A DNA stretch of 64,000 nucleotides from contig NZ_AP025018.1 of NCBI RefSeq assembly GCF_019977735.1, positions 7,258,580 to 7,322,579 on the forward strand, in the 5' to 3' direction. Below the pieces are notes generated by a model. The model was not told the DNA's origin and searched no databases. It saw nothing but the letters and a program-made list of their open reading frames with translations. Every line of letters starts with the position of its first letter. The first letter of the stretch is position 1. Shown here one piece after another: positions 387 to 64,000 of the stretch. The translations under genes were made by a program, and so were the position numbers. The DNA comes from Calothrix sp. PCC 7716 (lineage in GTDB: Bacteria > Cyanobacteriota > Cyanobacteriia > Cyanobacteriales > Nostocaceae).

Positions 387-2180
387 TTTGGACTTTGGAC
401 AAAATAATAAGTTTGCGAACAATGTTTGTGAGCTAAAAAAGGACGCAGTTTTTTATCCCAGTTATGAGATTAACTGAGTAAAACAAGTATATTTGCAGAA
501 AAACTACGCAGCTTTAGGCTGTGAAATGTTTGATTTTTGACTTTTTTTGATAACAGGATGCTTAACTCTTTTAGTCTGGGTCTGACCCCTCACCCTACCA
601 GTCGCATTTCCTCGGGGTTTTGGCGAATTTCCTGGTTTTCCGACCTCCGAAATAATTCTTTGGAAGTCACGTTGTACGGTACTGGGAGAAATAATTTTAT
701 CATTGTTTTGCTTTTGATAGCGCTCCCACGGTCTTGGTAAATAGTTAGATAATTCTTTTGCAGCCCATAATTGTACGTAGGCGAGCATTACTAAACGTAT
801 CCAATTTTCTTCGCGCTTTACGTCGGTAGTTTGGAAATTAGTCATTAGTAAACGTTGCTTTTTAAATCTAAACATATGTTCTATGTCAAACCGTTGCCGA
901 TAGCAAGAATAGACTTCTGCAAGCGTAATACGTCCGCGTTGCTCACCCATAACTATCAACCACATCGGTTTCCAAACCGCACAGCCAGTATCATCGGTAA
1001 CATGAACCCGTACTAGAGTAAATGGGCATTTATACATTTGTTCTTGTTGAGTTCCCCTCATCAACATATGGTGCCAAGCCTTGAGGGTTACTGTGAATTG
1101 GCGACCTTTCTTGCTAGTGCTCTTGAATTGTGTTGTCTCGTCAGGCGGGTGCCAAGTCTCTTCAAGGGCAAGGTCGAAACGTTCAGCAAATTTTTTTGGA
1201 CACCCGCGTTTCTTCTCTTCTTGTTGTGCAGGTGGTGAAGAGTAAAAAATTCGATTACTACGAACTCTGGTAATTACAACCAAATTTTTGTGTTTGGATG
1301 AATTAAATAGGAATGAGCGTTGACTATAAGCACTATCAGCAGTTAATACTGATAATTTACCGTGCCACGGAAGCGATTCATCTGACATCAATGCGTTAAT
1401 TTGGTTAATGCCAACACTTATACCTTTCTTATCAGTTGGAACTCTTTCTCCCGACAGTGGAATTGACCAAGGCGCCGACTGGTGGGAGTCTTTTTCAGGT
1501 AACAGCGACACGAATGAAAAAGAATGACCAACACCGATGGATTTATTACCTGCAATAGTATTTGGCTGGTAAATATAACCTCTTTCAGGTAAGGTTGGAG
1601 AGTAAGGGCGCGGGTGAGGAGTTGTATCCGTTGCAAATAAGTAAAAAGAGCGTTTTTCCGGTTGGGGCGTAACTTCAGCAATTAGTCGAGTTAAATTTTT
1701 TAGCTTTTTTCTCTTCTTTTTCTTATCATCGTTGAAATTAAATGATTTTTCAATTGCCTTGTAGATTGAGCTATAAGTCCTTTCAAATAAAGGACTTATA
1801 GATAACTCAACAGGGGAAGAAGCGCCGTTTGAGTTACTAGCCAAAGCATCAATTAAATCAATAATACTATCACTGTAAGATTTAAACAATTTACGTAAAT
1901 GTTGCCGAAAAGAGCGGAATTGCGCTATTAATTGATTATTGTTTATTACTTGCATAGCCATCAGTTGTTTTGGTATGTAGTTCGTTTCTGATAATACTAT
2001 GTATTGATATACTCACCCTGATGGCTATTTTTATAACTAACAACTTAGAGCAAAAGTTTTTATTAGTTCATATCAACTACTGGGAAGTCAATCTAATAAA
2101 ATGAAAAATATAAATGAAAACAACGTAAATGTTCTTCGCAATATTAGTGCGCGAACGTACTATTTTGTCCAAAGTCCAAA
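387..2180 (-). mobile_element. Complete IS element with about 30-bp inverted terminal repeats (IS4/IS701-like)
   Basis: The outer 30 bases at 387-416 and the reverse complement of 2151-2180 agree at 27 positions, beginning TTTGGACTTTGGACAAAATA. The element is about 1.79 kb and carries a single transposase gene in the leftward orientation, with about 120 bp after its stop and 220 bp before its start. I found no convincing target-site duplication, so this copy may be old or may have recombined with the related end at 174. Confidence 0.75.
504..1961 (-). CDS. DDE transposase of the IS at 387-2180
   Basis: This 485-residue transposase belongs to the broad IS4/IS701-like cyanobacterial group. Three acidic segments fit a DDE active site: ATDTTP near residue 112, LTADSAYS near residue 206, and YRQRFDIEHMFRFKKQR near residue 355, where Glu follows a conserved Tyr-Arg context. 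The C-terminal 50 residues are rich in Lys, Arg, Gly and Pro and probably contact DNA. The reading frame is intact, so the element could still be mobile. The start codon Met-Ala-Met offers two ATG choices six bases apart. The call as a transposase is secure; the exact family is not. Confidence 0.85.
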   Translation of the reverse strand: MAMQVINNNQLIAQFRSFRQHLRKLFKSYSDSIIDLIDALASNSNGASSPVELSISPLFERTYSSIYKAIEKSFNFNDDKKKKRKKLKNLTRLIAEVTPQPEKRSFYLFATDTTPHPRPYSPTLPERGYIYQPNTIAGNKSIGVGHSFSFVSLLPEKDSHQSAPWSIPLSGERVPTDKKGISVGINQINALMSDESLPWHGKLSVLTADSAYSQRSFLFNSSKHKNLVVITRVRSNRIFYSSPPAQQEEKKRGCPKKFAERFDLALEETWHPPDETTQFKSTSKKGRQFTVTLKAWHHMLMRGTQQEQMYKCPFTLVRVHVTDDTGCAVWKPMWLIVMGEQRGRITLAEVYSCYRQRFDIEHMFRFKKQRLLMTNFQTTDVKREENWIRLVMLAYVQLWAAKELSNYLPRPWERYQKQNNDKIISPSTVQRDFQRIISEVGKPGNSPKPRGNATGRVRGQTQTKRVKHPVIKKSQKSNISQPKAA

Positions 2181-2232
2181 ATGCATAACATGTCATTAAA
2201 TCTGGTGACAGGCACCTATTTTACACATGGGA

Positions 2233-2267
2233 ACTCTTCTCTCTGTGCCCTCTGTGTCTCTGTGGTA
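2233..2267 (+). repeat. Dispersed CTCTGTGTCTCTGTGGT repeat
   Basis: One copy of an intergenic repeat with the core CTCTGTGTCTCTGTGGT. Other copies are at 33481-33515 (inverse orientation), 33607-33640 and 49024-49053. All lie outside genes, so this is a dispersed family and not part of a coding sequence. Confidence 0.7.
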
Positions 2268-2340
2268 ATAATCTTTACAAAATGATATTTTATACATTAA
2301 TAAAGCTTTTAAAACATCCTCTAAACGGCGCCGTAACTCA

Positions 2341-2611: not shown

Positions 2612-3631
2612 TTAAAACTTATAATTTGATTTTATAATATTCATTCCTGCTGTTGCGAACCTTTTGTATGCTTCATCAGCAGCTTGGGTATAGTCAACCA
2701 CATCTTTCACGACTACAGGAGAACTACAATCTTCCAAAAGGTATATTTTCTTAGCTAAATTTGTGTCTGTTTGTTTAATTTCTATTAACAAGTCGTCTAT
2801 TGTCCAAGCGACACAGTGACTTTTTGCTTGTCCACCAATTATGACAATATCATATTGTAAAAGCTGTTTAATCAAACGAGTATTTTTTTCTGCAATTGTA
2901 CGGTTATCAAAGCTTGTGGCAACTTCTGGACGTAATACTGAATAATTTTCGGTTAAAGGATTATTTCCTTTGATTTCAAACTGTGTTTGACTGCTACGCG
3001 CGATTGAATGAAAAAATATTGCTTCTTCTACTGCTGATACTAATGCATGACCAATACCACCTAACATTGAATGATAAGGCCAAACGGTTAGAGGATATTT
3101 GCCGTTTTGTGTTAATTGCTTGACGTAATGATAAGCGTGTTTTTTTAATAATTCGTAATCCCATCCTAAACTAAAGGCAACACCTGGGTTAACTTTCCAT
3201 ATACCTTTGTCAATATCTGCGGGTGTAATATTTGTTGCTGCTGGTGTTGGATTTTGTCCGCTATCATTTACCCAAAATATAGGATGAAATATTTGCATTG
3301 CTGTATGGGTATCTAGCGTTGGTATAATTGTTGTGATTGTCCCTAAGTTACGATAGATAAATTCACATAAGCGGATGTTGTCTTCTACGGCGCCTTTTCC
3401 AGATTGTCCTCCTACGAATAATTCAAACCCTGGAATGCAAAATGTATTTTGTACGTCTATTAATAGTAAGCAAATGCGCTTTTTGTCTTGTGATGCTGGT
3501 TTGATGTTATGTTTTTTTGTCCATTCGTTTGCTTCGGCGCCTAAGATTTGATAGGGGACACGGTAGACTTCGCTTACTGTTTCTGGTTTGAAGTGAGGAG
3601 GGATGGGGAGTTGGCTTGCTGGGGTGTTCAT
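2612..3631 (-). CDS. Isochorismatase-fold cysteine hydrolase, nicotinamidase-like
   Basis: This 339-residue protein belongs to the isochorismatase/nicotinamidase superfamily, which cleaves amide bonds with an Asp-Lys-Cys triad. The nucleophile region is LLIDVQNTF (Asp near residue 59) and the catalytic Cys is in the GGQAKSHC segment near residue 268. LDTHTAM and VWPYHSM resemble the metal-binding Asp-x-His and the Trp-Pro-x-His motifs of nicotinamidases. It is longer than typical nicotinamidases (about 200 residues), with an N-terminal extension and inserts. It may be co-transcribed with the decarboxylase upstream (141 bp gap). The true substrate is unknown; nicotinamide is only one possibility. 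Confidence 0.8.
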   Translation of the reverse strand: MNTPASQLPIPPHFKPETVSEVYRVPYQILGAEANEWTKKHNIKPASQDKKRICLLLIDVQNTFCIPGFELFVGGQSGKGAVEDNIRLCEFIYRNLGTITTIIPTLDTHTAMQIFHPIFWVNDSGQNPTPAATNITPADIDKGIWKVNPGVAFSLGWDYELLKKHAYHYVKQLTQNGKYPLTVWPYHSMLGGIGHALVSAVEEAIFFHSIARSSQTQFEIKGNNPLTENYSVLRPEVATSFDNRTIAEKNTRLIKQLLQYDIVIIGGQAKSHCVAWTIDDLLIEIKQTDTNLAKKIYLLEDCSSPVVVKDVVDYTQAADEAYKRFATAGMNIIKSNYKF

Positions 3632-3694
3632 GAGTGATTTTTGCTACTGATAAAAATAATTTTTAACCTGCTAAACGTCACCATGATAACGTTA

Positions 3695-3716
3695 GAACGG
3701 GCAGGGATGCCCGTTC
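3695..3716. repeat. Palindromic GGGCAGGGATGCCC repeat
   Basis: A near-perfect palindrome centred on GGGCAGGGATGCCC lies between the two leftward genes. Variants of the same repeat occur near 2545, at 18287-18310 and at 45350-45372, all intergenic. It may fold in RNA and affect readthrough between the flanking genes, but no T-run follows it. Confidence 0.65.
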
Positions 3717-3772
3717 CACAAGACAATGTAATCTACACAGACAATTTACAATGTAATCTACAAGACAGGATA

Positions 3773-5404
3773 TTAAATGAGACCGGAGGCTACACGTTTA
3801 AGGGTGGATGATGCATCCATTTTGTCTAGGTGGACATCGAGTATACAAAAACTTTCTGTGTGCAGGGCTGCTTCTTGGAGTGCTATTTCTAGTTCTCCTT
3901 CGGTTTTGACTAAAAAGCCTCGTCCTTTACCTAATAGTTCTGGTAAGCGGCTATAGTTCCACCGTAATATGTTGTTGAATGAGCCGTCGATTATGTAACG
4001 TTCAGTTACATAGCCGTCGTTGTTGAGCAGGATAACTATTGGGTTACAATCAAATCTTGCTGCTGTTGATAGTTCTATTCCTGTCATTTGAAAGGCGCCA
4101 TCACCGACTAGTACTAATGGACGCAGATGGGGTTGCGCTTTTTGGACTCCAATTGCTGCTGGTACGGCAAAACCTAAAGATGCATAATACGCTGGTGAGA
4201 GAAAAGCAGCGCTACGATGTACTGAAAAATCAGCGGCGCCAAATAATGCATCACCAACATCAGCAATGACTATTGTGTCTTTTCCTAGAAATGTATTCAA
4301 GCGTGTGAATAGTCTTTCTGCTGTAACCGGCTGATTTGGGTCTTGGACTTTGTAAATTGGCGCCAGCTTGCAGTTTGGCGGACAATGTAATTCGCGCGGT
4401 GATAAGTCTGGTAATGTTGCAAGTGCGTTTATAAAGTCGGCAAATTGTACATCTTCGTAAACATGGTAGCCAATTGAAAGCTTTTCACTAAAAGCATGGA
4501 TGCAACGCTCACGTTCCAAACGCGCGGTGTAAATGCCAAGGTTCATGTCTGTCATCATTACACCCAACATAATCACGCAGTCGCTGGACTCTACATATTC
4601 ACGCACATCTTGCTGTCCAATACCTCCTTGATAAATACCCAAGTAAGCTGGTTCGACTTCATCAACTACAGATTTTCCTAGAATTGTTGCTGCAACAGGA
4701 ATATTTGACTTGCGAATCAAATCAAGCAAGACATTCTGTAATCTAAAACGATGAATTTCTTCTCCTGCTAAAATTACAGGCTGCTTGGCGTTATTGATTA
4801 AAGTTAAAGCTTCTTTGATAGCAGCTTGCAAGGTTTCTGGGTCACTTTGCGTTTTGGCATGAGTAGGGGTATGGTAACGTCTTCCTGTCACCATTACCAT
4901 GTCACGCGGTAATTCTATATAAACTGGTCGCTTAAACCGCAATGCTGCTGCTAATACACGGTCAATTTCTTCTAGTGCTGTATCTGGGTTATCTAGGACA
5001 GTGGAAGCAACTGTCAATTGTTCAAATACTTTTTTCTGAGTATCAAATTCACGCACCTTGTGGTGAATTAAGGGGTGTCTTAAGCGCTCCTCAATTCCTG
5101 GGGCGCCGCTAATTACTACTACAGGTGATAGTTCTGCGAATCCTTGAGCGGTTGTGTTGGCAATTTTTAAACCTCCAACACCATAGGTTACACAAACTGC
5201 TCCTAACCCCTGAACCCGCGCGTATGCATCAGCCGCAAATCCGGCGCCTTGTTCGTCACAGGTGTTGATTAATTCTAATTCACTCTCTTCAATTAAAGTC
5301 ATGAATTTCAACACGAAATCACCAGGAACGCCAAATATATGGCGAACTCCATGTTCGTGTAGCTGCTGAAGTAGATATTCGCCGATAGTAATTTCTGCGT
5401 TCAT
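3773..5404 (-). CDS. Thiamine-diphosphate 2-oxo acid decarboxylase (pyruvate/indolepyruvate decarboxylase-like)
   Basis: The protein has the three-domain architecture of ThDP-dependent decarboxylases. The N-terminal pyrimidine-binding domain includes the catalytic Glu context NTCDEQGAGFAADAYAR. A central domain follows. The C-terminal domain has the ThDP-Mg motif VGDGAFQMTG, ending in LLNNDGY. The sequence is closer to PDC/IPDC than to acetolactate synthase: it lacks a FAD-type central region I can recognise and has the YGVGGL motif of the decarboxylases. I chose the ATG at 5404 (MNAEITIGEYLL), which starts right at the conserved N-terminus; the alternative at 5428 adds eight residues. It would convert a 2-oxo acid to an aldehyde. 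The substrate cannot be read from sequence. Confidence 0.85.
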   Translation of the reverse strand: MNAEITIGEYLLQQLHEHGVRHIFGVPGDFVLKFMTLIEESELELINTCDEQGAGFAADAYARVQGLGAVCVTYGVGGLKIANTTAQGFAELSPVVVISGAPGIEERLRHPLIHHKVREFDTQKKVFEQLTVASTVLDNPDTALEEIDRVLAAALRFKRPVYIELPRDMVMVTGRRYHTPTHAKTQSDPETLQAAIKEALTLINNAKQPVILAGEEIHRFRLQNVLLDLIRKSNIPVAATILGKSVVDEVEPAYLGIYQGGIGQQDVREYVESSDCVIMLGVMMTDMNLGIYTARLERERCIHAFSEKLSIGYHVYEDVQFADFINALATLPDLSPRELHCPPNCKLAPIYKVQDPNQPVTAERLFTRLNTFLGKDTIVIADVGDALFGAADFSVHRSAAFLSPAYYASLGFAVPAAIGVQKAQPHLRPLVLVGDGAFQMTGIELSTAARFDCNPIVILLNNDGYVTERYIIDGSFNNILRWNYSRLPELLGKGRGFLVKTEGELEIALQEAALHTESFCILDVHLDKMDASSTLKRVASGLI

Positions 5405-5566
5405 AAATTTAGGTATTAGTAGATACAAGTAAATATGTACGTTAGCTAGTAAAAAAGCTGAACATCTGAAGAACTGAGTAATTACCTCAATCTTAAATGT
5501 TCAGCTATAAAAAATTGTTGCAAAAGCAACAAATATTGACTCTTTGTGATATGTACTTTACACGTA

Positions 5567-7153
5567 CTATCCCATAGATACAGTTAAACTGTTGGGTTCA
5601 CCTAAGTTACCTTGCATAACTACACCGCGATTATTTGCCGACATGTGTCGCAAAATAATGTATATTGACTCAATGTTGTCACTGGCGCCTGCTTTGTCAG
5701 CAATTTGCGCTAATGTCATAGGTGCTTTTTCGGTTTGCAATACGTTGATGACTTTTGTTTGTAAGTCCAATATGACTGCCGCAGCTTTTTTACCTGCTTC
5801 TACACCTGGTTGATGGTAAGCGTTTATGTTTACCAAACTTGCATAATAACCAACTGTTCGGTCATATAATGCAATTAAGGCGCCGACAGTACGAGGGTTA
5901 ACTTCGGGAATTGTGACGGTAATTGAGTCACGATGGTTTTCGTATAATGCAGTACGCGAACCTTGGAGGAAACCAGAGAGGTAGTCACCAGAGGTAATAC
6001 CTGGTTCGAGTTCAGGAGATGCTCCCTCACGGTCTTTCAATACTTCAATAAAGGTAAGAAAGAAGTTTGGCACCCCTTCGCGTAACTGTTGAACGTAAGC
6101 GTGTTGGTCGGTAGAGCCTTTATTACCATATACAGCAATACCCTGATGTACGATATTACCGTCAAGGTCTTTTTCTTTTCCTAAAGATTCCATGACGAGT
6201 TGCTGCAAGTAGCGACTAAATAGCAGCAAGCTGTCTTTATAGGGTAGAACGACCATATCCTTCTCACCCTTCCCATTCCCTGCGTAATACCACGCTAAAG
6301 CTAGCATTGCAGCAGGATTTTTCTTGATATCGGCAATGCGTGTGGCATCGTCCATTTCTTTGGCGCCAGAAAGCATCTCTTTAATATCAATGCCTTGAAG
6401 TGCAGCAGGTACTAACCCAACGGTAGACATTTCCGAAGTGCGTCCACCAACCCAATCATACATTGGGAAGCGCATTAGCCAGTTTTCGTTTTTGGCTTGG
6501 TCGTCTAGCTTACTACCTGGCATGGTAATAGCAACGGCGTAATTCGCAAAATCTAAATTTTGTCCCGCATAAGCCTTTTTAACTTCCAACATGCCGTTAC
6601 GCGGTTCGGGAGTACCACCAGATTTAGAGATTACTAAAACTAAAGTACTAGAAAGTTTATTACGTAGATGCGTGAGAATCTTGTCGATGCCAGTTGGGTC
6701 TGTATTATCGATAAAATGAATTGCTAAAGGAGGAAAATCGGGGGCAAGGGCTTCAGCGACAAATTCGGGACCAAGTGCAGAACCACCGATACCGATAGAG
6801 ATAATATCAGTAAAGCGTGCAGCTTTGGGAGGATGAATTCCACCAGTGTGAACTTTTTCCGCGAAAACTTCGATTTGTTCGATTGAACTCACAATTTCTT
6901 GTGTCAGTTCGGGAGTCGGCGCCAAATCAGGATTTCGCAGCCAGTAGTGTCCAACCATGCGGTCTTCGTCGGGGTTTGCAATGGCGCCCTTTTCAAGCTC
7001 CGCCATCGAAGCGAAAGCCTTCTCGAACTTTGGTTGCAACGCCTCTACGAACGCATTATCAAAGCGCATCCGACTAATATCGAGGTAAAACCCCAATCCT
7101 TCGTGGTAATATAACCATTCCTGGTATCGCTGCCAAAGTGTCGAAGCGTCCAT
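5567..7153 (-). CDS. pgi: Glucose-6-phosphate isomerase
   Basis: The enzyme interconverts glucose-6-phosphate and fructose-6-phosphate in glycolysis and the oxidative pentose cycle. The 528 residues match the cyanobacterial Pgi length. Visible landmarks are the sugar-phosphate-binding [14 protein letters not shown], the SKSGGTPE phosphate loop, [11 protein letters not shown], and the catalytic [15 protein letters not shown] segment. The C-terminal tail contains an extra region ([12 protein letters not shown]) that resembles a small winged-helix-like extension. The start at 7153 ([14 protein letters not shown]) is the natural one. The gene stands alone, about 160 bp upstream of the decarboxylase on the same strand. 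Confidence 0.97.
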
Positions 7154-7237
7154 AGGGAAATCTCAAGTAAGTTTTATCAACAACAAGTTTAAGGTAAGGA
7201 CTGGCTTATCCCATTCAACCTTATACAGTTTTAAGTC

Positions 7238-7513
7238 TTATGCCATCTGCTCGTCCTTAACATCTGGCATAGGTATAACTCGCAGAAACTTAACAATTTC
7301 ACCCCGTAGCTCAATACCAATAAGGTATCTATCGAGGCTAAATCGGTAAAATATGCCTTCACCATCAATTTGCCGTAACTGTGGTAAGTAGTGCAGTTGC
7401 CCTTTTTGGGGAAACTCCACAAACGCTAAATTATACACTTGCTGGTAAATAGTAGGTTCCAAACGACGTAAATCGTTTAAGAACGACCGCTCATAGCGTA
7501 CTTCGATATTCAC
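7238..7513 (-). CDS. RelE/ParE-superfamily toxin
   Basis: This 91-residue basic protein has the size and the beta-rich pattern of RelE/ParE toxins. It starts with a short strand and a helix (VRYERSFLNDLRRL), then strands around GIFYRFSLDRYLIGIEL, ending VKFLRVIPM. RelE toxins cleave mRNA in the ribosome; ParE toxins poison gyrase. The sequence does not decide between them. It begins 17 bp after the upstream small gene, which fits an antitoxin-first operon. Confidence 0.75.
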   Translation of the reverse strand: MNIEVRYERSFLNDLRRLEPTIYQQVYNLAFVEFPQKGQLHYLPQLRQIDGEGIFYRFSLDRYLIGIELRGEIVKFLRVIPMPDVKDEQMA

Positions 7514-7530
7514 ACAAACATTTCCCCTTT

Positions 7531-7728
7531 CTACGTCATTGTTAGGTATCGCACCGCTTCCTCATGCGTTAATGCATCCCACGGTTGCTGCAATTGTTTA
7601 ACGGACTGTATCGCTTTGAGAACTTTGTAGTCACAATGCAGCGCATACACTACACTCCAAACTAGTTGGAGTTCGTCATCGGTCATTTGTTCTATTAGTC
7701 CATGCAACTGGGGTCGCAGCACACTCAT
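7531..7728 (-). CDS. Small antitoxin-like protein
   Basis: This 65-residue acidic helical protein (MTDDELQLVWSVVYAL in the middle) precedes the RelE-like toxin by 17 bp and is the likely cognate antitoxin. No clear DNA-binding domain is visible, though the first 20 residues could form part of one. The assignment rests mainly on size, order and the partner gene. Confidence 0.65.
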   Translation of the reverse strand: MSVLRPQLHGLIEQMTDDELQLVWSVVYALHCDYKVLKAIQSVKQLQQPWDALTHEEAVRYLTMT

Positions 7729-7990
7729 AAATAAACTCTAAGAACGTAACTAATCTTTATAATTCCCAAAAAATGCATAAAAATAAGTCTTGTTATTCTA
7801 AAGATAATATGTAATGATGAATGGTTTTTACTAGAATCGATACCAACGTAGACGATATTGAATTTGACATTTAAATTGCCAATGTTAATTTCTGTATCTT
7901 TACAAAGTCTATTTTTTGGATACTATTCTTGATAACGTAAAAATTCTTATGTTTAATAAGGCTTCATAACCCAGTAAACGTAAAATCAGT

Positions 7991-9322: not shown

Positions 9323-9335
9323 GTTTTAACACTAC

Positions 9336-9361
9336 GTAGGGTGGGCCGAAGCCCACCATAC
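9336..9361. repeat. Palindromic GTGGGC-GCCCAC repeat
   Basis: An inverted repeat (GTAGGGTGGGC and GCCCACCATAC) lies between the binding-protein and permease genes. Family members are at 12945-12968, 21099-21122 and 42587-42611, plus the copy split by the IS at 13000. In the operon mRNA it could form a stem that stabilises the upstream message, as is common for binding-protein genes. Confidence 0.7.
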
Positions 9362-9392
9362 ATATAGATAATGACTAACACATAAAACAACT

Positions 9393-10523: not shown

Positions 10524-10546
10524 CAAGATAGATATAAGTAATCACC

Positions 10547-53894: not shown

Positions 53895-54073
53895 AGGGTA
53901 TCTCCTTTTATATTCAAATCTCCCAATAAAATTTTTCTTTTTGGGAAGCTATAAAATTTATTATAGCTATTTTTTTGAAAAAAGTCGTGAGCTACACTAC
54001 ATAAATTACCATTCTATGATATGTGATTTTTCATTTACATTTTTTAACAGATACACCAAGCTGACAGCGTTCA

Positions 54074-54844: not shown

Positions 54845-55022
54845 CTATAAATAAATATGAATGTGCCCAAAGTTGGAATTGATTTTAGCAAATGATTACA
54901 ATACGTAGGCGCCACTTTTATTATCGTGGACATGTAAGTAATGTATATATCAGCAGAAGACAGTTTTTAGATAAGACATTAAGCCAAAGTCAAGCTAACT
55001 TTTCTCTATCTAAGGAAACCTC

Positions 55023-58000
55023 ATGATTTTTCGTAGTACAGAACCGAATATCTCTATCCCTGAACAGCCAATCACAGAAATTGTCTTGCAACGAGCCGTA
55101 AAATTTGCTGATAAACCAGCGATGATTGACGGGCTAACTGGTCGAACGATAACTTATAACTCACTCTTCAACTCAATTAACAAAGTCGCTGCTGGTTTTG
55201 CTGCCTTGGGTTTGTCTAAGGGGGATGTAGTTGCTATTTATAGTCCTAACTGTCTAGAATATCCTATCGCTTTTCAGGCAATCGCTAGTTTAGGCGGAGT
55301 TTGCAGCACGGCAAATCCATCTTATACAGCTAGCGAACTTGCATATCAATTAAATGATGCTGGTGCTAAATATTTGTTGACAGTACCGTCCCTTTATGAA
55401 CGCGCATTAGAGGCCGCTAGTCAATCAAAAGTTGAGTCAGTATTCGTGTTTGGTAACATTGAGGGCGCAATCCCATTTTCTGTACTTCTAGAAAATTGTG
55501 ACGACTTACCAAAGGTAGAAATTAATCCAAAAGAGGACGCGGTTGCTTTGCCTTATTCTAGTGGTACAACTGGTTTGCCAAAAGGTGTCACACTAACACA
55601 CCATAATCTAGCAGCTAACGTATACCAACTTACAAGCCGCGAATTGATAAGTTCAGCAGACACAATAATTGGCATTCTCCCATTCTTTCATAGCTACGGA
55701 CTGCAAATTTTCTTAAACTATAGCCTTTATTGCGGCGCCACCATAGTTGTGATGCCACAATTTGATTTAGAGACTTTTTTAAGACTAGTAGAGAAGTATA
55801 AAATTACGCGCGCGCATTTAGTACCTCCGATAGTATTAGCCTTAGCAAAACAACCAATAGTAGATAAATACGACCTTTCTAGCTTAAAGATAATTACCTG
55901 CGGAGCAGCGCCATTGGGTAATGAATTGACCTTAGAATGCGAACAGCGTTTAAATTGTGTTATCAAGCAAGCCTACGGTTTGACAGAAACCAGCCCAGTA
56001 ACGCATATCAACCCAGATGAACGTGAAAAAATCAAACCCGGTTCTGTTGGTCGCTGCATGAGAAATACTGAATGCCAAATTGTAGATATTGAAACAGAGA
56101 AACCCTTGGGTGTTCGTGAGCAAGGAGAGCTATGGATTAGGGGTCCGCAAGTAATGAAAGGTTATTTAAATAACCCCGAAGCGACAGCAAAAGTAATTGA
56201 TGCTGATGGTTGGTTTCATACTGGCGATATAGCTTATGTAGATGAAGATGGTTATTTTTACATAGTTGACCGGATTAAAGAGTTAATTAAATACAACGGA
56301 TATCCAATTGCACCAGCAGAACTAGAGGCTGTATTGTTATCCCATCCAGCAGTAGCTGATGCTGCTGTAATCCCCAGTCCCCATCCAAGCACCGGTGAAG
56401 TTCCCAAGGGTTTTGTTGTCCTCAATAGCGTTGCTACTACCGAAGAAATTATGGAATTTGTAGCAAGACTTGTGGCGCCGCATAAAAGAATCCGTCGGTT
56501 GGAAATTGTCGATAAAATTCCCAAATCAGCTTCTGGTAAAATTTTGCGTCGGCTTTTAGTGCAACGAGAAATAGCAAATGTAAGAGAAAAACCACAAGAA
56601 CCTCTATTGACTCAAAATTTGCAGTTACTTCAACAATTAACATCTTCTGACGAAACAAAACGCCAAGAAATTCTGGTAAATTACATTAGAGAAAAAGTTA
56701 TCAAAGTTTTAGGGTTAGATGAGTCCCAACATCTAAATTTACAAAAGCCACTTTCGGAAATGGGACTAAATTCTCTGAGCAATATCGACCTGAAAAACCA
56801 GATTGATACCGAAATTGGTGTAAACTTACCTATAGAAATTTTGCTGGCAGGTTCAAATATTCATCAATTGGTTAATGTATTGCTTGAACAATTAACAACA
56901 AAAAGCATTGCAACTAATCATGTTATAGATTTAGAAGCTGAAGTGATTTTAGATGATGCAATCTACCCAGAAAATAATGATAACTCATTTATTACCGAAC
57001 CAACAGCCATTTTTCTCACAGGAGCGACAGGATTTTTAGGAGCTTTTTTACTCCAAGAACTTCTGCAACAAACTCAAGCTGATATTTATTGCTTAGTTCG
57101 TGCGTCGGATAAAGACTCTGCTTACATCAAAGTGCAAAAAAACTTAGAATATTATGGTATTTGGCAGGATGCTTTCCGTAGCCGAATTATTCCAGTTTTA
57201 GGCGATTTATCAAAATACCAGTTAGGTCTGTCAACCGAATATTTTGTTCATATTGCGAGTGTAATTGATGTAATTTATCATAGCGCAGCTTGGCTAAATT
57301 ATGTTTATCCCTACGAAGCTTTAAAACCTAGCAATGTTTTGGGAACGCAAGAAATTTTCCGATTAGCAAGTTTTGGTAAAGTTAAGCCAGTACATCATAT
57401 TTCTACCGTTGCTGTTTTTGAGTCATCTTTTTATTTGGGAAAAACAGTTAACGAATTAGAACCACTTGCCCATAGCTCTGGAATGAAACTTTCTTATTCT
57501 CAAAGTAAATGGGTTGCAGAAAAATTAGCTACGATTGCCCGCGCGCGAGGTATTCCCGTTTCTATCTACAGACCACCTTTTATTTCCGGTCATAGTCAAA
57601 CAGGTGCTTGGTATAGAGATGATGTTATTTGTCGAATGATTAAAGGTTGCATCCAAATGGGAAGCATGACGAGTTTAACTGATATATTGGATTTATCTCC
57701 TGTTGATTATGTCAGCAAAAGCATTATCTATTTATCAAGACAACGCGAAACTCTTGGTAAATCTTTCCATTTAAACAATCCTCAACCTATTTCTTGGAAA
57801 GAACTGACTGATTTTATTCGTTCTTTAGGCTATCCTCTAACGTATATTTCTTATCAAGATTGGCAGTCACAGCTTAGTAATAGAGCTATCTCGCAATTAA
57901 ATCCTTTATATCCTCTTTTACCTTTCTTTCTCAAAAATTCGAGTCAGCATCAACAAGCTAGAGAGCCAAAAATTACCTGTCAAGCAACACAAACCGCGCT

Positions 58001-58115
58001 CAAGGAAGGTTCGATTATATGTCCTCCGGTAGATACTAAATTGCTGAATACTTATTTCGACTATTTTATTCGTAGCGGTTTTTTGGACGTGGCGCCTCTA
58101 GTCGTCGAATGTTAG
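55023..58115 (+). CDS. Adenylation-carrier-reductase enzyme (carboxylic acid reductase-like)
   Basis: This 1030-residue protein has three domains. The 4CL-type adenylation domain (about 1-520) has YSSGTTGLPKGVTLTH, YGLTETSPVTHIN, WFHTGDIAYVDEDGYFYIVD and the catalytic Lys in PKSASGKILRRLL. The phosphopantetheine carrier (about 550-630) has EMGLNSLSNIDL with the Ser to be modified. The thioester reductase (about 660-1030) has FLTGATGFLGAFL for NADPH, HISTVAVF and YSQSKW. The enzyme would activate a carboxylic acid, hold it as a thioester and release an aldehyde or alcohol. RBS AAGGAAA lies just before the ATG. The acid is probably fatty or aromatic, judging by the 4CL-like domain. Confidence 0.88.
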   Translation: MIFRSTEPNISIPEQPITEIVLQRAVKFADKPAMIDGLTGRTITYNSLFNSINKVAAGFAALGLSKGDVVAIYSPNCLEYPIAFQAIASLGGVCSTANPSYTASELAYQLNDAGAKYLLTVPSLYERALEAASQSKVESVFVFGNIEGAIPFSVLLENCDDLPKVEINPKEDAVALPYSSGTTGLPKGVTLTHHNLAANVYQLTSRELISSADTIIGILPFFHSYGLQIFLNYSLYCGATIVVMPQFDLETFLRLVEKYKITRAHLVPPIVLALAKQPIVDKYDLSSLKIITCGAAPLGNELTLECEQRLNCVIKQAYGLTETSPVTHINPDEREKIKPGSVGRCMRNTECQIVDIETEKPLGVREQGELWIRGPQVMKGYLNNPEATAKVIDADGWFHTGDIAYVDEDGYFYIVDRIKELIKYNGYPIAPAELEAVLLSHPAVADAAVIPSPHPSTGEVPKGFVVLNSVATTEEIMEFVARLVAPHKRIRRLEIVDKIPKSASGKILRRLLVQREIANVREKPQEPLLTQNLQLLQQLTSSDETKRQEILVNYIREKVIKVLGLDESQHLNLQKPLSEMGLNSLSNIDLKNQIDTEIGVNLPIEILLAGSNIHQLVNVLLEQLTTKSIATNHVIDLEAEVILDDAIYPENNDNSFITEPTAIFLTGATGFLGAFLLQELLQQTQADIYCLVRASDKDSAYIKVQKNLEYYGIWQDAFRSRIIPVLGDLSKYQLGLSTEYFVHIASVIDVIYHSAAWLNYVYPYEALKPSNVLGTQEIFRLASFGKVKPVHHISTVAVFESSFYLGKTVNELEPLAHSSGMKLSYSQSKWVAEKLATIARARGIPVSIYRPPFISGHSQTGAWYRDDVICRMIKGCIQMGSMTSLTDILDLSPVDYVSKSIIYLSRQRETLGKSFHLNNPQPISWKELTDFIRSLGYPLTYISYQDWQSQLSNRAISQLNPLYPLLPFFLKNSSQHQQAREPKITCQATQTALKEGSIICPPVDTKLLNTYFDYFIRSGFLDVAPLVVEC

Positions 58116-58225
58116 AGCATATTCGTTTAAGAAATAGTACCCTGTTGTGTACCAAACAAAGTACGTAATTCCTGTTTGGCGCCGTGATGAATTACTTAGA
58201 TAACAATTCACACAGGATAAAAATT

Positions 58226-58738
58226 ATGACCGACATATTTAACACAACCGCTCAACTTCAAAAGCCAGTTTTAAAAGAAGGTTCCAAGGGTGAAGCAGTT
58301 AAGGAATTACAAAAACTCTTACTAAAATATAATGCTTATGTAACAATTGGCAGTTCCGGCGCCTGTGTATTTCCAGGAGAGGAAGTAATTGATGGTAACT
58401 TTGGTCCCAAAACTACAACCGCAGTTAAATTGTTCCAAGCACGGATGTTTTTAGTACAAGATGGTATTGTTGGTGATAGAACTTGGCGTTCATTGTTCAA
58501 AGGTGCCCCCGTTGATATGCCTGTTCTAAAAAAAGGCAGCAAAGGAGATTTAGTTAAGGCAGTTCAACAAAGACTATCAATTGGTGGTTATGAAGTTGGC
58601 GCCATTGATGGTGACTTTGGCAACCGTCTAGAGAAAGCTGTAAGACAGTTGCAAAAAAACACTGGTTTACCTGTTGATGGTGTAGTTGGCGACCGCACTT
58701 GGTTTGAGTTAAGCAAGATTAGTACAATTTTCTGCTAA
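58226..58738 (+). CDS. Protein with two PG_binding_1 repeats
   Basis: From the ATG at 58226 the 170-residue protein carries two peptidoglycan-binding type 1 domains. The shared pattern is (K-E/K-GSKG-x2-VK) then D-GxFGxxxxxAVxxxQ and GxVGDRTW, first around residues 15-95 and then 100-165. No signal peptide is visible with this start; the GTG at 58184 also gives none. Without a catalytic domain it may tether another protein or bind wall material after lysis or export. A hairpin follows. Confidence 0.82.
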   Translation: MTDIFNTTAQLQKPVLKEGSKGEAVKELQKLLLKYNAYVTIGSSGACVFPGEEVIDGNFGPKTTTAVKLFQARMFLVQDGIVGDRTWRSLFKGAPVDMPVLKKGSKGDLVKAVQQRLSIGGYEVGAIDGDFGNRLEKAVRQLQKNTGLPVDGVVGDRTWFELSKISTIFC

Positions 58739-58814
58739 GATTTTCACTTTATATAAGATAGCAGGCGCCAACGGTTAATATCAATTTAACAAGCATAGAA
58801 TTTGTAATAAAAAG

Positions 58815-58837
58815 CGCCTCCTAATATATTGGAGGCG
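58815..58837. terminator. Bidirectional terminator
   Basis: A 7-bp stem (CGCCTCC with GGAGGCG) closes a 9-nt AT loop; T-rich tracts lie on both sides. It lies between the convergent PG-binding gene and the PEP-synthase-like gene, so it can end both transcripts. Confidence 0.7.
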
Positions 58838-58975
58838 TTATATTTATATTACCTTTTGAACCAATTGCAACAGATGATTACGCGGAGACTTCCCCAAGGT
58901 TCACTTTGACTACCTTATTCTTTTCTGTTTCGCTCTTAGATGTTATGGAGCCGAAAGCTTATACTACGTTAATCG

Positions 58976-61501
58976 CTATAACCCGCGCGTAGAAGCAATT
59001 TTAGATACTATTCCAGTACTACCATCCATTTCTATATAGTCACCATCTTGTAACCACTGAGTAACACCAGAAATAGAAGTAATTGCTGGAATTCCCAATT
59101 CGCGGGAAACTATTGCTGCGTGAGATAGTAAACTCCCACATTCTACTAACAACCCAGATGCGAAAGGAAATAGTAAAATCCATCCTGGGTCTGTACGTTC
59201 GGCAACGAGAATTGTGTCTGGAGGAAATATTTGATTTGTAGAACCTAAAACTTGTTTGGGGTCTTTAATTACTCGCACACAACCCTTTACTATACCCCCA
59301 GAACAGCCAATACCCTGTTTTTGCGATACTAATTCTGAGTATGTTGTTTTTCCATGTTGTACAAACGAGTTTCCTTGATAAATTATGCCACGAGTTTCAA
59401 AGCGCGAATCGGTCGGCGCCATTTCTCGGTATTTAGCAAATTCAGGTTGACGCACAGCTACCAATCCTTTTAAATCTGTACAGGTAGCTGTTCCTTCAAT
59501 AAAACCGAGTATTTCCGAAACTTCTAAGTAAAAAATGTCTTGTGGTGATGTTAACAAGTCGAGAGCATAAAAACGGCGCCCTAATTCTACAAATACCTGT
59601 CTAGCTCTACCAAAAACACGGGTACGCTCAAACCGTAAATTCTCACGCTCTCGTACTCGGATACGGGCATTTTTTAATACCCAGTTAAATATTAACTTTC
59701 GTGAAGGGTATTTTTTGAACAACTCATTTACTATCTGTTCTGCTTTTTGACGGTTATTGGATGTATTTCGTTGTTCGCTTAACATTGCCAATTGACCAAT
59801 AGCTCGTAATAAGGGTAGAGGTTGGTCGTGAAGTGTTGGACTCTCTAATTTCAACTCTTCCAAACAGCGGTCGCCAAATTTTTCCAGATATTCTTGATAT
59901 TGTGCCTCAAATGCTTGTTGTTTCATCCCTTTGAGAATTTCATCCAAGGAACCTTCACACAGTAATTTGACGAAGGAAACATTTTCCCTCACGGAATTCG
60001 CCATGTTCTGCATTCGTTCAGCAGGTTCGGTACTAATAATCTTACCTTCGTCACTAATTAAATCATTTTGCAAACTATTTAACTTACCATCGCACCATTT
60101 CTCAGTCAGGCGCCGTAGCACTCCATAAAAAATCATCGCAAAGAAATCATTGATGAGAGGAGCATCCCAACGGGCCAGTAATTGCCCTTCTATTCTACGA
60201 TAATATGCAGCCAATTCATCAGCACGCCAATCAGCTAAATTAGGCTCTGATAAAGACAAAGCATTTTCTAATCTTAAATAAAATCTCTGAATTCGTTTGG
60301 GTAATAGTATATAGTTCATCACTAAACCAGCAAACGTTTTTAATAGGCGCCAACTATCTTGTAATTTATCCTGCCAAGTTGCAGATTGCAATTCACTAAC
60401 AATATTTTCGGGTAAAGATTCTTTTACACCCATCATCTGCTCCATAAAGCCTCGATTTAATCTAAATCCAGGCAGCAGAGCTAATACTCGATACCAACTT
60501 AACAAATTGTAATAAACACGTCCTCTAATTAACCCAATCATCCGAGCAAACGTATCATGATGACGCACGATTGCAGTTTGAGGAACACCCATGAAGTAAC
60601 AAAATTGACGATATACTTCTTCATAAGCCTTACGCGCGAAGCTAAATGTTAGAGGAGTAGTAACGCCATTGTAACTTTCGGCAATATTGCTGTTATCCCA
60701 TAAATTTAACAATCCATCAGGGTCAGGAATTTGAGCCAAAGTTGTAATCGGACGGGATTGTAATAAATATAACTGTTTGTTTTCAATTGCCCACTCAATA
60801 TCTTGGGGACAAGCAAAATGTTTACCTAACTGACGTACCAAGGTAGCTATTTGGGTAATTTGTTCATCTTCCAACAGTTGTTCAGTTTGATGTTGACTAA
60901 TATTACCTTTTATATCTATATAATATGTGTGAGCATTACTTTCTCCCGATACCAAAGAAGTGGATAAACCAGAAACTGCATTCACCACTGCAACAGAACG
61001 TCTACCAGTCACAGGGTCGGCGCCGAAAGCTACCCCTGATACAATTGGGTTAACCATACGCTGTATCAAAACAGCAGGAGGAGAAGGAATTAAAGGTAAA
61101 TTATGTTGACGACGATAAGCTAAAATTCGTTGACTAAAACCAGATCGCCAAACCTCTATTACCTTAGCAGGGACATCTTCTGGAGTCACATTCAAAAAAC
61201 TATCTAATTGCCCAGCAAAGGAATATTGCTCACCATCTTCATCAATAGCAGAAGAACGTACCGCTACTAATTCTCCATTTGGACAAAGTTCTTTTACAGC
61301 TTGCTGAATTTCTTCTTTAACTATTGGATGTAACTGAATATTAAAATCTTGCTCAGGAGTAAGACTATCTGACCAAGCATTGATTGAAACTACAAACCCT
61401 TGAGGAATCAAAAAACCATGACGTTGTAAATCGAAAAGAGTTTTTGCTTTGGCGCCTATCAGGTCATCTTTTTGTATAGGTGGATAAATAATATAATTCA
61501 T
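58976..61501 (-). CDS. PEP-synthase-like phosphotransferase
   Basis: From the ATG at 61501 the protein has 841 residues. The N-terminal ATP-grasp part (KAKTLFDLQRHGFLIPQGF, VAVRSSAIDEDGEQYSFAGQ, IEWAIENKQLYLLQSRPI) is followed by a large substrate-specific middle and a C-terminal swivelling domain with the phospho-His loop GSLLSHAAIVSRELGIPA. This is the plan of PEP synthase and of rifamycin phosphotransferases; it lacks the usual C-terminal PEP barrel of the true PEP synthase. It probably phosphorylates a small molecule or lipid head. It is the last gene of the UbiA operon, after a 183-bp repeat-bearing gap. Confidence 0.85.
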   Translation of the reverse strand: MNYIIYPPIQKDDLIGAKAKTLFDLQRHGFLIPQGFVVSINAWSDSLTPEQDFNIQLHPIVKEEIQQAVKELCPNGELVAVRSSAIDEDGEQYSFAGQLDSFLNVTPEDVPAKVIEVWRSGFSQRILAYRRQHNLPLIPSPPAVLIQRMVNPIVSGVAFGADPVTGRRSVAVVNAVSGLSTSLVSGESNAHTYYIDIKGNISQHQTEQLLEDEQITQIATLVRQLGKHFACPQDIEWAIENKQLYLLQSRPITTLAQIPDPDGLLNLWDNSNIAESYNGVTTPLTFSFARKAYEEVYRQFCYFMGVPQTAIVRHHDTFARMIGLIRGRVYYNLLSWYRVLALLPGFRLNRGFMEQMMGVKESLPENIVSELQSATWQDKLQDSWRLLKTFAGLVMNYILLPKRIQRFYLRLENALSLSEPNLADWRADELAAYYRRIEGQLLARWDAPLINDFFAMIFYGVLRRLTEKWCDGKLNSLQNDLISDEGKIISTEPAERMQNMANSVRENVSFVKLLCEGSLDEILKGMKQQAFEAQYQEYLEKFGDRCLEELKLESPTLHDQPLPLLRAIGQLAMLSEQRNTSNNRQKAEQIVNELFKKYPSRKLIFNWVLKNARIRVRERENLRFERTRVFGRARQVFVELGRRFYALDLLTSPQDIFYLEVSEILGFIEGTATCTDLKGLVAVRQPEFAKYREMAPTDSRFETRGIIYQGNSFVQHGKTTYSELVSQKQGIGCSGGIVKGCVRVIKDPKQVLGSTNQIFPPDTILVAERTDPGWILLFPFASGLLVECGSLLSHAAIVSRELGIPAITSISGVTQWLQDGDYIEMDGSTGIVSKIASTRGL

Positions 61502-61534
61502 AATACTACTCAATTAAGCGTTATTACCATGAGA

Positions 61535-61684
61535 ATCCCCCCTAGCCCCCCTTAATAAGGGGGGAAAAGAGAAGTTTAAAGCCCACCTTATTAAGGGGAA
61601 AAAAGAGAAGTTTAAAGCCCACCTTATTAAGGGGGAAAAAAGAGAGTTTAAAGCCCCCCTTATTAAGGGGGGTTGGGGGGATTT
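61535..61684. repeat. Tandem CCTTATTAAGG palindrome array
   Basis: The block starts AATCCCCCCTAG and ends with its complement-like GGTTGGGGGGATT. Four CCTTATTAAGG-type palindromes (the first reads CCTTAATAAGG) are spaced 36-37 bp apart, each followed by AAAA(A)AGAGAAGTTTAAAG. The right end touches the UbiA stop codon. The strongly folded RNA may separate expression of the UbiA and the PEP-synthase-like genes. Confidence 0.8.
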
Positions 61685-62593
61685 TTAAACTAGTGTCGGT
61701 ATAATACCCAAACTAAGGTAAACAAACAAAGTCCACAATCCAGACATGGTATCAATTAAATTTGCCCACTTAGTCACAGGTTGGCGCCGAAACACCCATC
61801 CGACTCCCACCGCGCAAAATAATAATGTCACCACTACAAACCCAACCAAAGTTACTTCACCAATTTGATACGCAGCAAACCAAGTAGCAAGCGTCCCTAA
61901 ACCAAGCGCAAACAGCCAAACCAGCACAGCATTTTTATATCCCCACAAACTACTATATGTTTCTACCCCAAATTCCTCATCATTCGGCGCCCTAATTTTC
62001 CGTCCAATTTCAATTACCATCCCGTTAAAAAAGCTAGCCAACAAAAACCACAAACCGTTTAATGGAAATGGGGTGCCAGAAACCAACCAATCGCAGGCAG
62101 TACCATAAAAATTAATTAGAGGCATAATTAGCATATGGCTCAACATATAAATTACAGGATTTGCTTTTAGCCACTTCGCTACAAAAAACTCTTGGCTCAT
62201 TAACCCGATATAAAGCCAAACTCCACCCAACACCAATGCTAACCAAGGTGATAAATAAAAACTTGCACTCAACTGAATTAAGGCGCCAAAAATACTTACC
62301 CAACCTAATTCATCTAAACTTACTAATCCTCTAGGAACGGGACGATAAGAACGGTAGCGCGCGTCTTCTGAAAAATCTTTAAATTCATCTGCTATCCGCA
62401 GTTGTAGAAAGAAAATAAAAATAGTAGTAAAGGCAACTAATAATGAAGATAAATTTGGTAGGCTGCCATTACCACGCAACAAACCAGAATAACCTACCGC
62501 AGAACCACTAAAAACTGCGATTAATATCCCGTTTTTAAAAACAGGAAAACGTTCTTTTTGATAAATCCACCATCGGTTTTGTTCTAGCAGCAT
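61685..62593 (-). CDS. UbiA-family prenyltransferase
   Basis: This 302-residue membrane protein has about eight spans. The first Asp-rich motif is RIADEFKDFSEDARYR (DxxxDxxxD region), and the YRPVPRG that follows is typical of UbiA. The second, around KIRAPNDEEFGVETYSSLWG, fits the second metal-binding site. UbiA enzymes attach isoprenoids to aromatic or polyol acceptors. The start codon directly follows the stop of the upstream small gene with no gap, showing coupled translation. The acceptor is unknown. Confidence 0.9.
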   Translation of the reverse strand: MLLEQNRWWIYQKERFPVFKNGILIAVFSGSAVGYSGLLRGNGSLPNLSSLLVAFTTIFIFFLQLRIADEFKDFSEDARYRSYRPVPRGLVSLDELGWVSIFGALIQLSASFYLSPWLALVLGGVWLYIGLMSQEFFVAKWLKANPVIYMLSHMLIMPLINFYGTACDWLVSGTPFPLNGLWFLLASFFNGMVIEIGRKIRAPNDEEFGVETYSSLWGYKNAVLVWLFALGLGTLATWFAAYQIGEVTLVGFVVVTLLFCAVGVGWVFRRQPVTKWANLIDTMSGLWTLFVYLSLGIIPTLV

Positions 62594-63025
62594 TTATTCA
62601 CTTCCTTCTGACTTAGCTCTCACAGTCAACTGAGCTTCTGCAATTTCTTCGTCATTCCAACCTTGCGCTCTGAGTCTGCTAGTAATTTGAGTTTCACTCC
62701 AACCTTGCTTGATACCTTTTTCTATATAATCAATCAAAGAAATACTTTGAGGAGTTAGTGAAATATTCTGCTCCCTAAGAGCATCACTTCTTATTTCTGT
62801 TGAATTATTTGGTACAAGAGTTCGCCCCAATAAATTTTCAATAACTTCGAGCGTTACCGAACCAAGAAGCCAGCAAAGAGGAATCCAAACTACTAAACTA
62901 ATTCCGAGAGTGCAAAAAAGTGATACCTGAATTATTAACAATGCAGGCTGAATTCCACCAGACATTAAAGCCAGGGAACCAAATACAATGGGGATGCCTA
63001 TTAAAATTTTTATAAATCGTCTCAT
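62594..63025 (-). CDS. Small membrane protein of the UbiA operon
   Basis: This 143-residue protein has two hydrophobic spans near the N-terminus (ILIGIPIVFGSLALMSGG and LLIIQVSLFCTLGISLVVW) and a soluble C-terminus ending with a helix pattern (QGWSETQITSRLRAQGWNDEEIAEA). The repeated GW-(S/N)-(E/D)-xxI motif (QGWSETQI, QGWNDEEI) suggests a small internal duplication. I do not recognise the family. It starts 12 bp after the stop of the duplicated membrane protein. Confidence 0.7.
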   Translation of the reverse strand: MRRFIKILIGIPIVFGSLALMSGGIQPALLIIQVSLFCTLGISLVVWIPLCWLLGSVTLEVIENLLGRTLVPNNSTEIRSDALREQNISLTPQSISLIDYIEKGIKQGWSETQITSRLRAQGWNDEEIAEAQLTVRAKSEGSE

Positions 63026-63037
63026 TTCCGATGCTTC

Positions 63038-64000
63038 CTATAAATTATTATCTAGAATATTTTCCCAATAACGTATAAAGGCAATCATTAATGCCATATA
63101 AAAAGGAACGGCAAATGCAATTTCAATAGGTATTTTTAAAACAGGCATAAACACACCTGTATAAAAATGTTGAGCGCTTTCACTATATACTCTAAAGCCA
63201 TTTCTAATAAATGTTGCTTCAATTGGTATAGCTAAAGATGTAGTAATACTCAATGCAATTAAAAATCTGTAAAGCATGGGAAAATGGCTAAAGAATTTTC
63301 CGACTAAAACAGCTGTTATACCGATTACGACAATCCAAATTCCAGGAATAAATAAGCTGATATCGTGGAAAATATATGACCACTGGGGAAATTTTTGATT
63401 TACCGCCATTGGTTCTACCATGACTTCAAATAAAAAGATACCTATGAAAGCAATTGTAATATCACGCAGCCATTTTCGACGTTTTAAAGGTACTAATGGT
63501 ACATCATCAATTACAAAACTCCAGTACTTATAGAAGCTAATAATCAAACCTGTAAACACGGGTGTGTAGTAGAAAATCTCTATTGGAACTCTGAAAATAA
63601 AAATGCCAGACACAACTTTGTTAACTTCTGGCGAGTAACCCCGTAAATTAATATTCACAGCCCATATTTCTAACGGTACAATTAAAAATGTCAAGATTCC
63701 CAAATAAATAAGAAATCTCTGTGACTCTTTCACATGGGGAAGTAACTTATCAATTACTAACACAGTAGTTAAAATCAAAGAAGTCCAACCAATTGTTAAA
63801 ATCCAGCTAACATCATGATATAAATAAGCCCACTCACCCATTCTATGATTTTTCCACATGGGCGCCGTAAACATTTCAAATATCAACACCCCCACAGCCA
63901 TAATACCAAACCGTTGCCACATTTTATCTTTAACTTTTGGCAAGAAAAACATACTTACTGCAAACCCCAAAGCAATAAATAATTCAAATATAATAATTGG
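63038..64000 (-). CDS. Internally duplicated polytopic membrane protein (N-terminus outside window)
   Basis: The frame stays open to the right edge without a stop, so the start is probably outside; a TTG at 63970 is the only near candidate inside. At least ten hydrophobic segments are visible. Two homologous halves of about 145 residues are seen: each has FE(M/V) then P-M, W-(A/S)-Y-(L/I)-(Y/F)-HD(V/I)S, PLEIWAVNINLRGYS or PIEATFIRNGFRVYS, VPIEIFYYTPVF or IPIEIAFAVPFY, and YW near the end. This Pro-Ile-Glu pattern resembles heterodimeric or fused lycopene-cyclase-like proteins. It heads the UbiA operon, which fits isoprenoid chemistry, but the assignment is tentative. Confidence 0.75.
   Translation of the reverse strand, partial: PIIIFELFIALGFAVSMFFLPKVKDKMWQRFGIMAVGVLIFEMFTAPMWKNHRMGEWAYLYHDVSWILTIGWTSLILTTVLVIDKLLPHVKESQRFLIYLGILTFLIVPLEIWAVNINLRGYSPEVNKVVSGIFIFRVPIEIFYYTPVFTGLIISFYKYWSFVIDDVPLVPLKRRKWLRDITIAFIGIFLFEVMVEPMAVNQKFPQWSYIFHDISLFIPGIWIVVIGITAVLVGKFFSHFPMLYRFLIALSITTSLAIPIEATFIRNGFRVYSESAQHFYTGVFMPVLKIPIEIAFAVPFYMALMIAFIRYWENILDNNL

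Follow-up and report, generated by a model that had tools for sequence, protein, structure and literature searches.

GGCGCC as an alternate highly iterated palindrome across the Calothrix/Dulcicalothrix genus, with rapid return of its central base

In a stretch of 64,000 bases from Calothrix sp. PCC 7716 (contig NZ_AP025018.1, positions 7,258,580 to 7,322,579; called the window throughout), the hexamer GGCGCC is present in great excess and the usual highly iterated palindrome (HIP) of cyanobacteria, HIP1 (GCGATCGC), is missing. The excess recurs in all seven genomes of the genus, each of which carries an intact gene for a candidate cytosine-5 (C5) methyltransferase, and the central base of the palindrome, once mutated, returns at silent sites far faster than comparable bases do. 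The explanation that we favour, and hold to be rather probable, is that GGCGCC is an alternate HIP that replaced HIP1 and is held by a restoration process specific to the target base and tied to the methylase.

The window (38.9% GC) contains 123 copies of GGCGCC, the first starting at position 1471 and the last at 63861, exactly the bounds named in a preliminary description of the stretch, which had put the number at about 120. Base composition predicts 3.5 copies, in line with the three to four given there, for an observed-to-expected ratio (O/E) of 35, and a maximal-order Markov estimate, in which the frequencies of GGCGC and GCGCC are already built in, still yields only 69. The copies are distributed as follows:

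1471..63866, no strand assigned: GGCGCC copies, 123 starts (1471, 2327, 3389 ... 62282, 63861), mean spacing 511 bp, median 416

A codon or peptide bias favouring Gly-Ala pairs would be in keeping with the 58 of 107 coding sites that read GGC GCC in frame, but the other 49 are read as nnG GCG CCn (34) or nGG CGC Cnn (15) and 16 sites lie outside open reading frames (ORFs). Moreover, synonymous codon shuffling of the window's 46 ORFs of at least 120 amino acids (called mechanically, two nested ones of 48 being excluded) leaves 4.9 ± 2.1 copies, with a maximum of 13 in 300 shuffles, against the 107 observed, and such a bias was rejected on these grounds, its probability being negligible. Because all three frames are used and the density is 2.00 per kb within ORFs and 1.51 per kb outside them, the hexamer is enriched as a DNA word and not as a peptide, as the preliminary description had argued. 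The sites are spaced slightly more evenly than random placement would have them, with a coefficient of variation (CV) of 0.84 against 0.99 ± 0.09 (2.2% of 2000 simulations that low); in a second stretch of 140 kb the CV is 0.91 (7.3% of simulations as low). In these two stretches the base on the 5' side of the site is seldom G (66 of 778 flank bases, compared with 273 T, 248 A and 191 C). The genes of the window are ordinary: nine of ten scanned proteins have Pfam matches, among them components of ABC transporters, phosphoglucose isomerase and AMP-binding enzymes.

Genome-wide (12.37 Mb, 10 contigs) there are 20,380 GGCGCC, or 1,648 per Mb, where simple arithmetic at the window's GC content gives about 670, and only 7 copies of the reversed word CCGCGG. 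Every 20-kb piece of the genome that was read contains the site, pieces of the small contig C2 included; in C2 and C4, probably plasmids, the pieces read carry 1.5-2 sites per kb. In the window both HIP1 and CGATCG number zero, and over the genome HIP1 occurs 66 times against about 63 expected, again by simple arithmetic, its reversed word 64 times, so that it stands at chance level. A genome-wide count of GGCGCC near expectation, or an abundance of HIP1 beyond the window, would have spoken against the proposal that GGCGCC takes the place of HIP1; with neither found, it extends to the whole genome. Two shorter palindromes are avoided in the window, namely GATC (6 against 226 expected, or 132 by codon shuffle) and GGCC (12 against 92; within the shuffled ORFs 11 against 60).

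The phenomenon is not new in kind. Elhai had already assigned the role of alternate HIP to GGCGCC in Calothrix PCC 7103, which belongs to the same genus, and reported along with it two predicted GRCGYC methylases and an extreme depletion of GATC (Elhai, 2015; PMC4390886). Our HIP1 count for that genome (163 in 11.6 Mb, 14 per Mb) equals the value in his table (PMC4390886). The genome studied here shares with PCC 7103 the word, the GATC depletion and the loss of HIP1; the two cases differ in that the window comes from another genome of the genus and that seven genomes and rates by position are now compared, where the 2015 study had a single genome plus 19 kb from Calothrix D253. Among the matches listed in a literature search, which left most subscription journals outside, no other paper treated GGCGCC as a HIP of cyanobacteria. 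New here are the spread over the genus, the candidate methylase gene in all seven genomes and the position-wise substitution rates. Like HIP1, which goes with GATC and CGATCG methylases, GGCGCC is a GC-rich palindrome, probably linked to a methylase, found in genes and between them at about 1-2 per kb; the word differs, and HIP1 itself is at chance level in the genome. The site is an extreme outlier in abundance, and its 1,648 copies per Mb lie within the range of roughly 1000-2000 of alternate HIPs.

The seven genomes of the genus, which are that of the window, Dulcicalothrix desertica PCC 7102, Calothrix PCC 7103, Calothrix HK-06, NIES-4105, a further genome (G294) and the metagenome-assembled FI2-JRJ7, hold between 7,475 and 20,380 GGCGCC each and 1-8 copies of the reversed word. 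In 290 genomes of the order, among which only the window's own represents the genus, the number of sites mostly ranges from a few to several hundred at most. Two relatives outside the seven, NIES-4101 and CSU_2_0, which are about 74% identical in DNA over a transporter gene run of the window, contain no GGCGCC but 15 and 17 HIP1 copies in about 19 kb. The enrichment is thus a clade trait of the Calothrix/Dulcicalothrix genus, and its presence in seven of seven genomes contradicts Elhai's position that exceptional HIPs are sporadic and do not characterise clades (PMC4390886).

The highest count elsewhere in the order comes from a different family: genome G057 has 9,489 GGCGCC in 3.8 Mb and 2,450 copies of the reversed word, compared with 304-343 and 172-367 in four congeners. 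A sample of it (L244, L245; 16 kb at 53.7% GC) gave an O/E of 5.5 and no HIP1; the genome also has a relative, at 55% identity, of the candidate methylase L002 discussed below, and G057 may represent a second origin of the enrichment. G008, G165, G035 and G132, which also exceed most of the order in GGCGCC, were sampled and set aside at O/E 0.9-2.3, three of them containing HIP1.

As to the solitary methyltransferase that the preliminary description had suggested looking for, a candidate exists and no restriction gene was recognised next to it. Two PF00145 families, here called L002-type and L009-type after a locus of each, have a gene in each of the seven genomes, counted from PF00145 listings of partly draft assemblies, and the L002-type gene is intact in all of them (PF00145 match with E-value 2e-64 for L002; 3e-60 for a further locus, L004). 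All 14 aligned members of the L002 family show the features reported for GRCGYC methylases, that is a TI/TV loop preceded by R at 12 residues and Gly/Ala at 10 residues (PMC2413257), the distances being taken as residues between. M.BsaHI, for which methylation of the central C of GRCGYC is reported in the same source, resembles the L002 type in its PF00145 domain, its loop residues and its length of about 300-337 amino acids, and differs in that no R.BsaHI motif accompanies the gene in the fetched loci of the genus (Neely and Roberts, 2008; PMC2413257). We infer from this signature that the L002-type enzyme recognises and methylates GGCGCC, and it is the most likely candidate for methylation of the inner cytosine, giving GG(m5C)GCC (m5C, 5-methylcytosine). 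The remainder of the GRCGYC set is depleted in a sample of 99 pooled loci of the genus (1.94 Mb, a few loci overlapping), with O/E 0.03 for GACGTC, 0.38 for GACGCC and 0.22 for GGCGTC against 31 for GGCGCC.

In the window's genome, PCC 7102 and FI2-JRJ7 the gene lies between an SLH-type gene and a RuBisCO-like gene (identified by Pfam in the window's genome); the gene labels SLH-type and dihydroorotase were assigned by eye. No restriction gene was recognised by eye directly beside it in the three loci read of seven fetched, two of which were also scanned with Pfam, and the R.BsaHI motif SPERRFD was not found in the fetched loci, the search being confined to these. L004 adjoins an ORF of 368 amino acids without a Pfam, PADLOC or NCBIfam match or an R.BsaHI motif, which is perhaps its restriction partner. 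The window's genome additionally contains an L002-type methylase in two parts (L008/L016) as well as a fragment (L015), and PCC 7102 has a further C5 methylase of 658 amino acids about 3 kb from its L002 gene. The L009 type was rejected as a cause, since copies 55-74% identical are widespread in relatives with few GGCGCC and the family therefore does not track the trait; the L001 and L005 families were rejected as patchy among the fetched loci.

Substitutions were followed in sampled orthologous DNA of the window's genome and four close species (94-95% identical; 147-184 kb aligned per species, of genomes of about 9-12 Mb), NIES-4105 (87%) and G294 (83%), on a resolved tree of six species with one inner node at 52% support. 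The likelihood estimates use only sites at which all aligned genomes show one of two states, for palindrome and control sets alike, and confidence limits come from coarse grids. At silent sites the return of GGTGCC to GGCGCC is some 25-60 times faster than the control T-to-C change, the return rate v being 31.4 (20-43) for frame-0 sites and 35.7 (20-55) for frame-2 sites against 0.6-0.7 in controls. The corresponding loss rates u, 3.7 and 4.6, equal those of controls (3.4-4.5). Outer transitions are 2-5 times rarer than in controls: silent C6-to-T has u = 0.51 (0.29-0.78) against 2.75, about fivefold lower, and over all sites the values are 0.34 against 0.75 and 0.12 against 0.54 (2-4.5 times). 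No clear pattern emerged for transversion losses (all sites, nine classes). Simulations at control rates returned v estimates of at most 2.0, or at most 4.3 when rates varied strongly (12 runs for each setting), which shows that the method does not by itself create a high v. Likewise, no site was lost in the whole cluster of close species and kept in NIES-4105, where simulations produced 17-22 such sites without restoration and 0-1 with it (five runs each). The earlier statement that the palindrome is being kept has to be refined accordingly: the central base disappears at the ordinary silent rate and comes back unusually quickly, and the outer bases undergo fewer transitions than controls.

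An explanation that Elhai proposed for this clade is a ratchet in which G-m5C-directed mismatch repair keeps any new GGCGCC, all one-off neighbours being driven to the palindrome until about one site per kb is reached (PMC4390886). It predicts a fast central return ('GGTGCC to GGmeCGCC') and a set point to which the density of 1.65 per kb is close. One-off neighbours other than GGTGCC and GGCACC are indeed scarce in the genus sample (O/E 0.18-0.89), lying below control loci across eight classes except for GGCGAC (0.78 against 0.59), and silent GGCGCA also returns fast. Against this, when nine one-off classes were compared over all sites, only the central transition had a clearly raised return (22 against a control of 0.8, with grid limits too coarse for use in this class). 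For five other classes the upper limits lie at 1.0-2.7, including 1.0 for AGCGCC/GGCGCT (control 0.47) and 2.7 for GACGCC/GGCGTC (control 0.42); for two further classes the limits are 12 and 148, and GGCGCA over all sites returns at 1.07 (0.01-4.5). On terminal branches none of 149 one-off site-branches became GGCGCC. A ratchet acting on all neighbours thus appears unlikely.

Selection for a function of GGCGCC, for instance in chromosome organisation, recombination or methylation signalling, could account for the fivefold reduction of silent outer C-to-T changes, the slightly even spacing and the occurrence in every 20-kb piece read, C2 included. By fixation theory, selection able to speed up the return 25-60-fold would leave hardly any central losses, and these occur at the control rate, so that we regard selection as improbable. 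A fast return combined with an unslowed loss is not expected from selection alone and resembles repair or mismatch direction at one base, and the restoration would accordingly be a bias of repair or of mismatch direction at the methylase's target base.

Within GGCGCC the silent central C-to-T change is about seven times as frequent as the outer one, which hints at the methylated base, and PCC 7102 offers a natural experiment in this respect. In PF00145 listings it alone of the five close species lacks a second intact L002-type gene (its assembly being a draft), the other candidate read there being just 29% identical. It lost 3 of 133 sites, compared with 73 of 552 in the other four (16-22 of 122-147 each; p = 8e-5), and its central loss at silent sites is slower (likelihood ratio 11.6) with silent control sites not slowed. 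Genome-wide, GGTGCC and GGCACC taken together are also scarcest there relative to GGCGCC (ratio 0.126 against 0.155-0.254 in the other six). The pattern, in one lineage, fits with extra methylase copies raising the deamination of the central C.

According to the explanation we favour, GGCGCC would have taken over from HIP1 in the genus and an M.BsaHI-type methylase would methylate its inner cytosine; where that cytosine mutates to T, giving GGTGCC or GGCACC, a base-specific process would turn the T back to C, and occasional new sites would arise from sequences at least two changes away and be held afterwards. Each of the 11 GGCGCC gains counted (3 on terminal branches, 5 on the cluster stem, 3 in NIES-4105) started from a hexamer that differed by two or more changes. 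One conceivable route is that a mismatch at the target base alone still lets the new strand be methylated, so that mismatch repair would be misdirected only there. This would require that C5 methylases accept, or even favour, a mismatched base at the flipped-out position, and Elhai's ratchet would then be limited to the central base. A T:G enzyme other than Vsr would leave the same pattern. Very-short-patch repair by Vsr returns T to C at a methylase's target base, comparable to the return of GGTGCC. The Dcm/Vsr systems, including ScmA/VsrA of Caulobacter (PMC12907096), share with the present case a C5 methylase and, provided the inferred target base is right, the T-to-C bias at the target; they differ in that outer transitions are reduced here as well and that no Vsr family member was found. 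A search for Vsr endonuclease (PF03852) was negative in all seven genomes of the genus and positive in 5 of 14 control genomes, and Vsr-type repair by homology was rejected. We tentatively entertain, at somewhat less than even chance, that a Vsr-independent, base-specific restoration acts genome-wide on GGTGCC and GGCACC in this genus, so that each genome would carry some 7,000-20,000 copies of a hexamer that repairs itself.

Several observations weigh against the favoured explanation. Restoration alone cannot give a 30-fold excess, and neither mismatch steering nor a T:G enzyme accounts for the outer protection or for the first rise of the sites. The specificity of the methylase rests on a sequence signature, and the mutational sign of m5C holds only relative to the outer bases, because the raw excess of central C-to-T changes vanishes against silent controls; that excess (57 of 685, compared with 230 of 8,504 for other CpG) was accordingly dropped as stand-alone proof of methylation. 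Silent GGCGCA, an outer class, returns at 20 (2.7-55), on 4 variable sites. None of 22 site-branches with a unanimous GGTGCC or GGCACC ancestor returned. The branch of PCC 7102 is somewhat shorter overall, and its assembly is a draft. Among 35 other genomes of the same family (f1), the 18 that carry an L002 relative are poorer in GGCGCC (median 0.65 against 3.96 per Mb, p = 0.03), as expected if the enzyme's site included GGCGCC and were usually avoided. Finally, the net flux on the terminal branches of the five close species is outward, with 76 of 685 ancestral sites lost (57 by change into GGTGCC or GGCACC) and 3 gained; even when GGCGCC is pooled with its two decay forms, 41 of 1,093 exit against 8 clear and 16 unclear entries.

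These losses, together with the faster central loss in the four close species that have a second family gene, are what one would expect of a decaying relic in which the building force has ended and newly gained second methylases now erode the sites. On the cluster stem the balance is different, with 1 loss and 5 gains for GGCGCC alone and 4 exits and 7 entries for the pooled class. On the NIES-4105 branch the pooled class has 6 exits and 3 entries. Five silent sites have the decayed form in common in 3-4 of the 5 species, and a recent-loss model fits worse than constant return (364.1 against 357.6 log units, a difference of 6.5). When both are allowed, deep losses are estimated at zero and v is still 20, so time dependence has some part, which also counts against an unchanging restoration. 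We judge a relic to be improbable, about as much so as selection for function.

A second, weaker enriched word consists of the alternating CG tracts, which the preliminary description had put at about thirty, and individual sites can be followed in a transporter gene run of the window:

2997..62363, no strand assigned: alternating CG tracts (CGCGCG/GCGCGC), 31 tracts of 6-9 bases
7991..15247, + strand: run of genes that includes an ABC transporter's substrate-binding protein and two of its permeases (Pfam Peripla_BP_6, BPD_transp_2 twice; three ORFs scanned)
8444..8449, + strand: decayed site, GGTGCC here, GGCGCC in all seven other genus sequences aligned (five genomes, two with two gene copies)
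10637..10642, + strand: site present here as GGCGCC, GGTGCA in five other genus genomes, GGCGCC in the second gene copy of PCC 7102

In the window's ORFs CGCGCG occurs 27 times against 4.3 ± 2.3 after codon shuffling, and in the genus sample CGCGCG and GCGCGC have O/E values of 8.5 and 5.4, CGCGCG being the next palindrome after GGCGCC (31); in control loci each occurs once against 9.5 expected. Turnover is rapid in the CGCGCG class, with 31 exits among 200. Other six-base palindromes are nearly missing from the genus sample (GTCGAC 0, GTGCAC 0, CCGCGG 0, TTCGAA 5 of 637 expected, GCATGC 2, CCATGG 2), and the near-absence of so many is a sign of many restriction systems. The transporter run, which we take to be urt-like from its arrangement, holds 16 GGCGCC, three of them within a repeated stretch at about 12984-14503 (about 1.5 kb, ORF 13107-14474). 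Two more copies of this stretch lie in the same genome at 99-100% identity, and it resembles a mobile element.

A genus in which GGCGCC took the place of HIP1, and which offers seven genomes and the cultured strains PCC 7102 and PCC 7103, makes the competing ideas on why many cyanobacterial genomes fill with one palindrome testable by substitution rates. Persistence of the trait throughout the genus weakens one of Elhai's two arguments for selection on HIP1 and not on exceptional HIPs (PMC4390886). The rates themselves disfavour a general one-off ratchet and plain selection on the central base, and they favour a repair bias at the presumed target base of the methylase.

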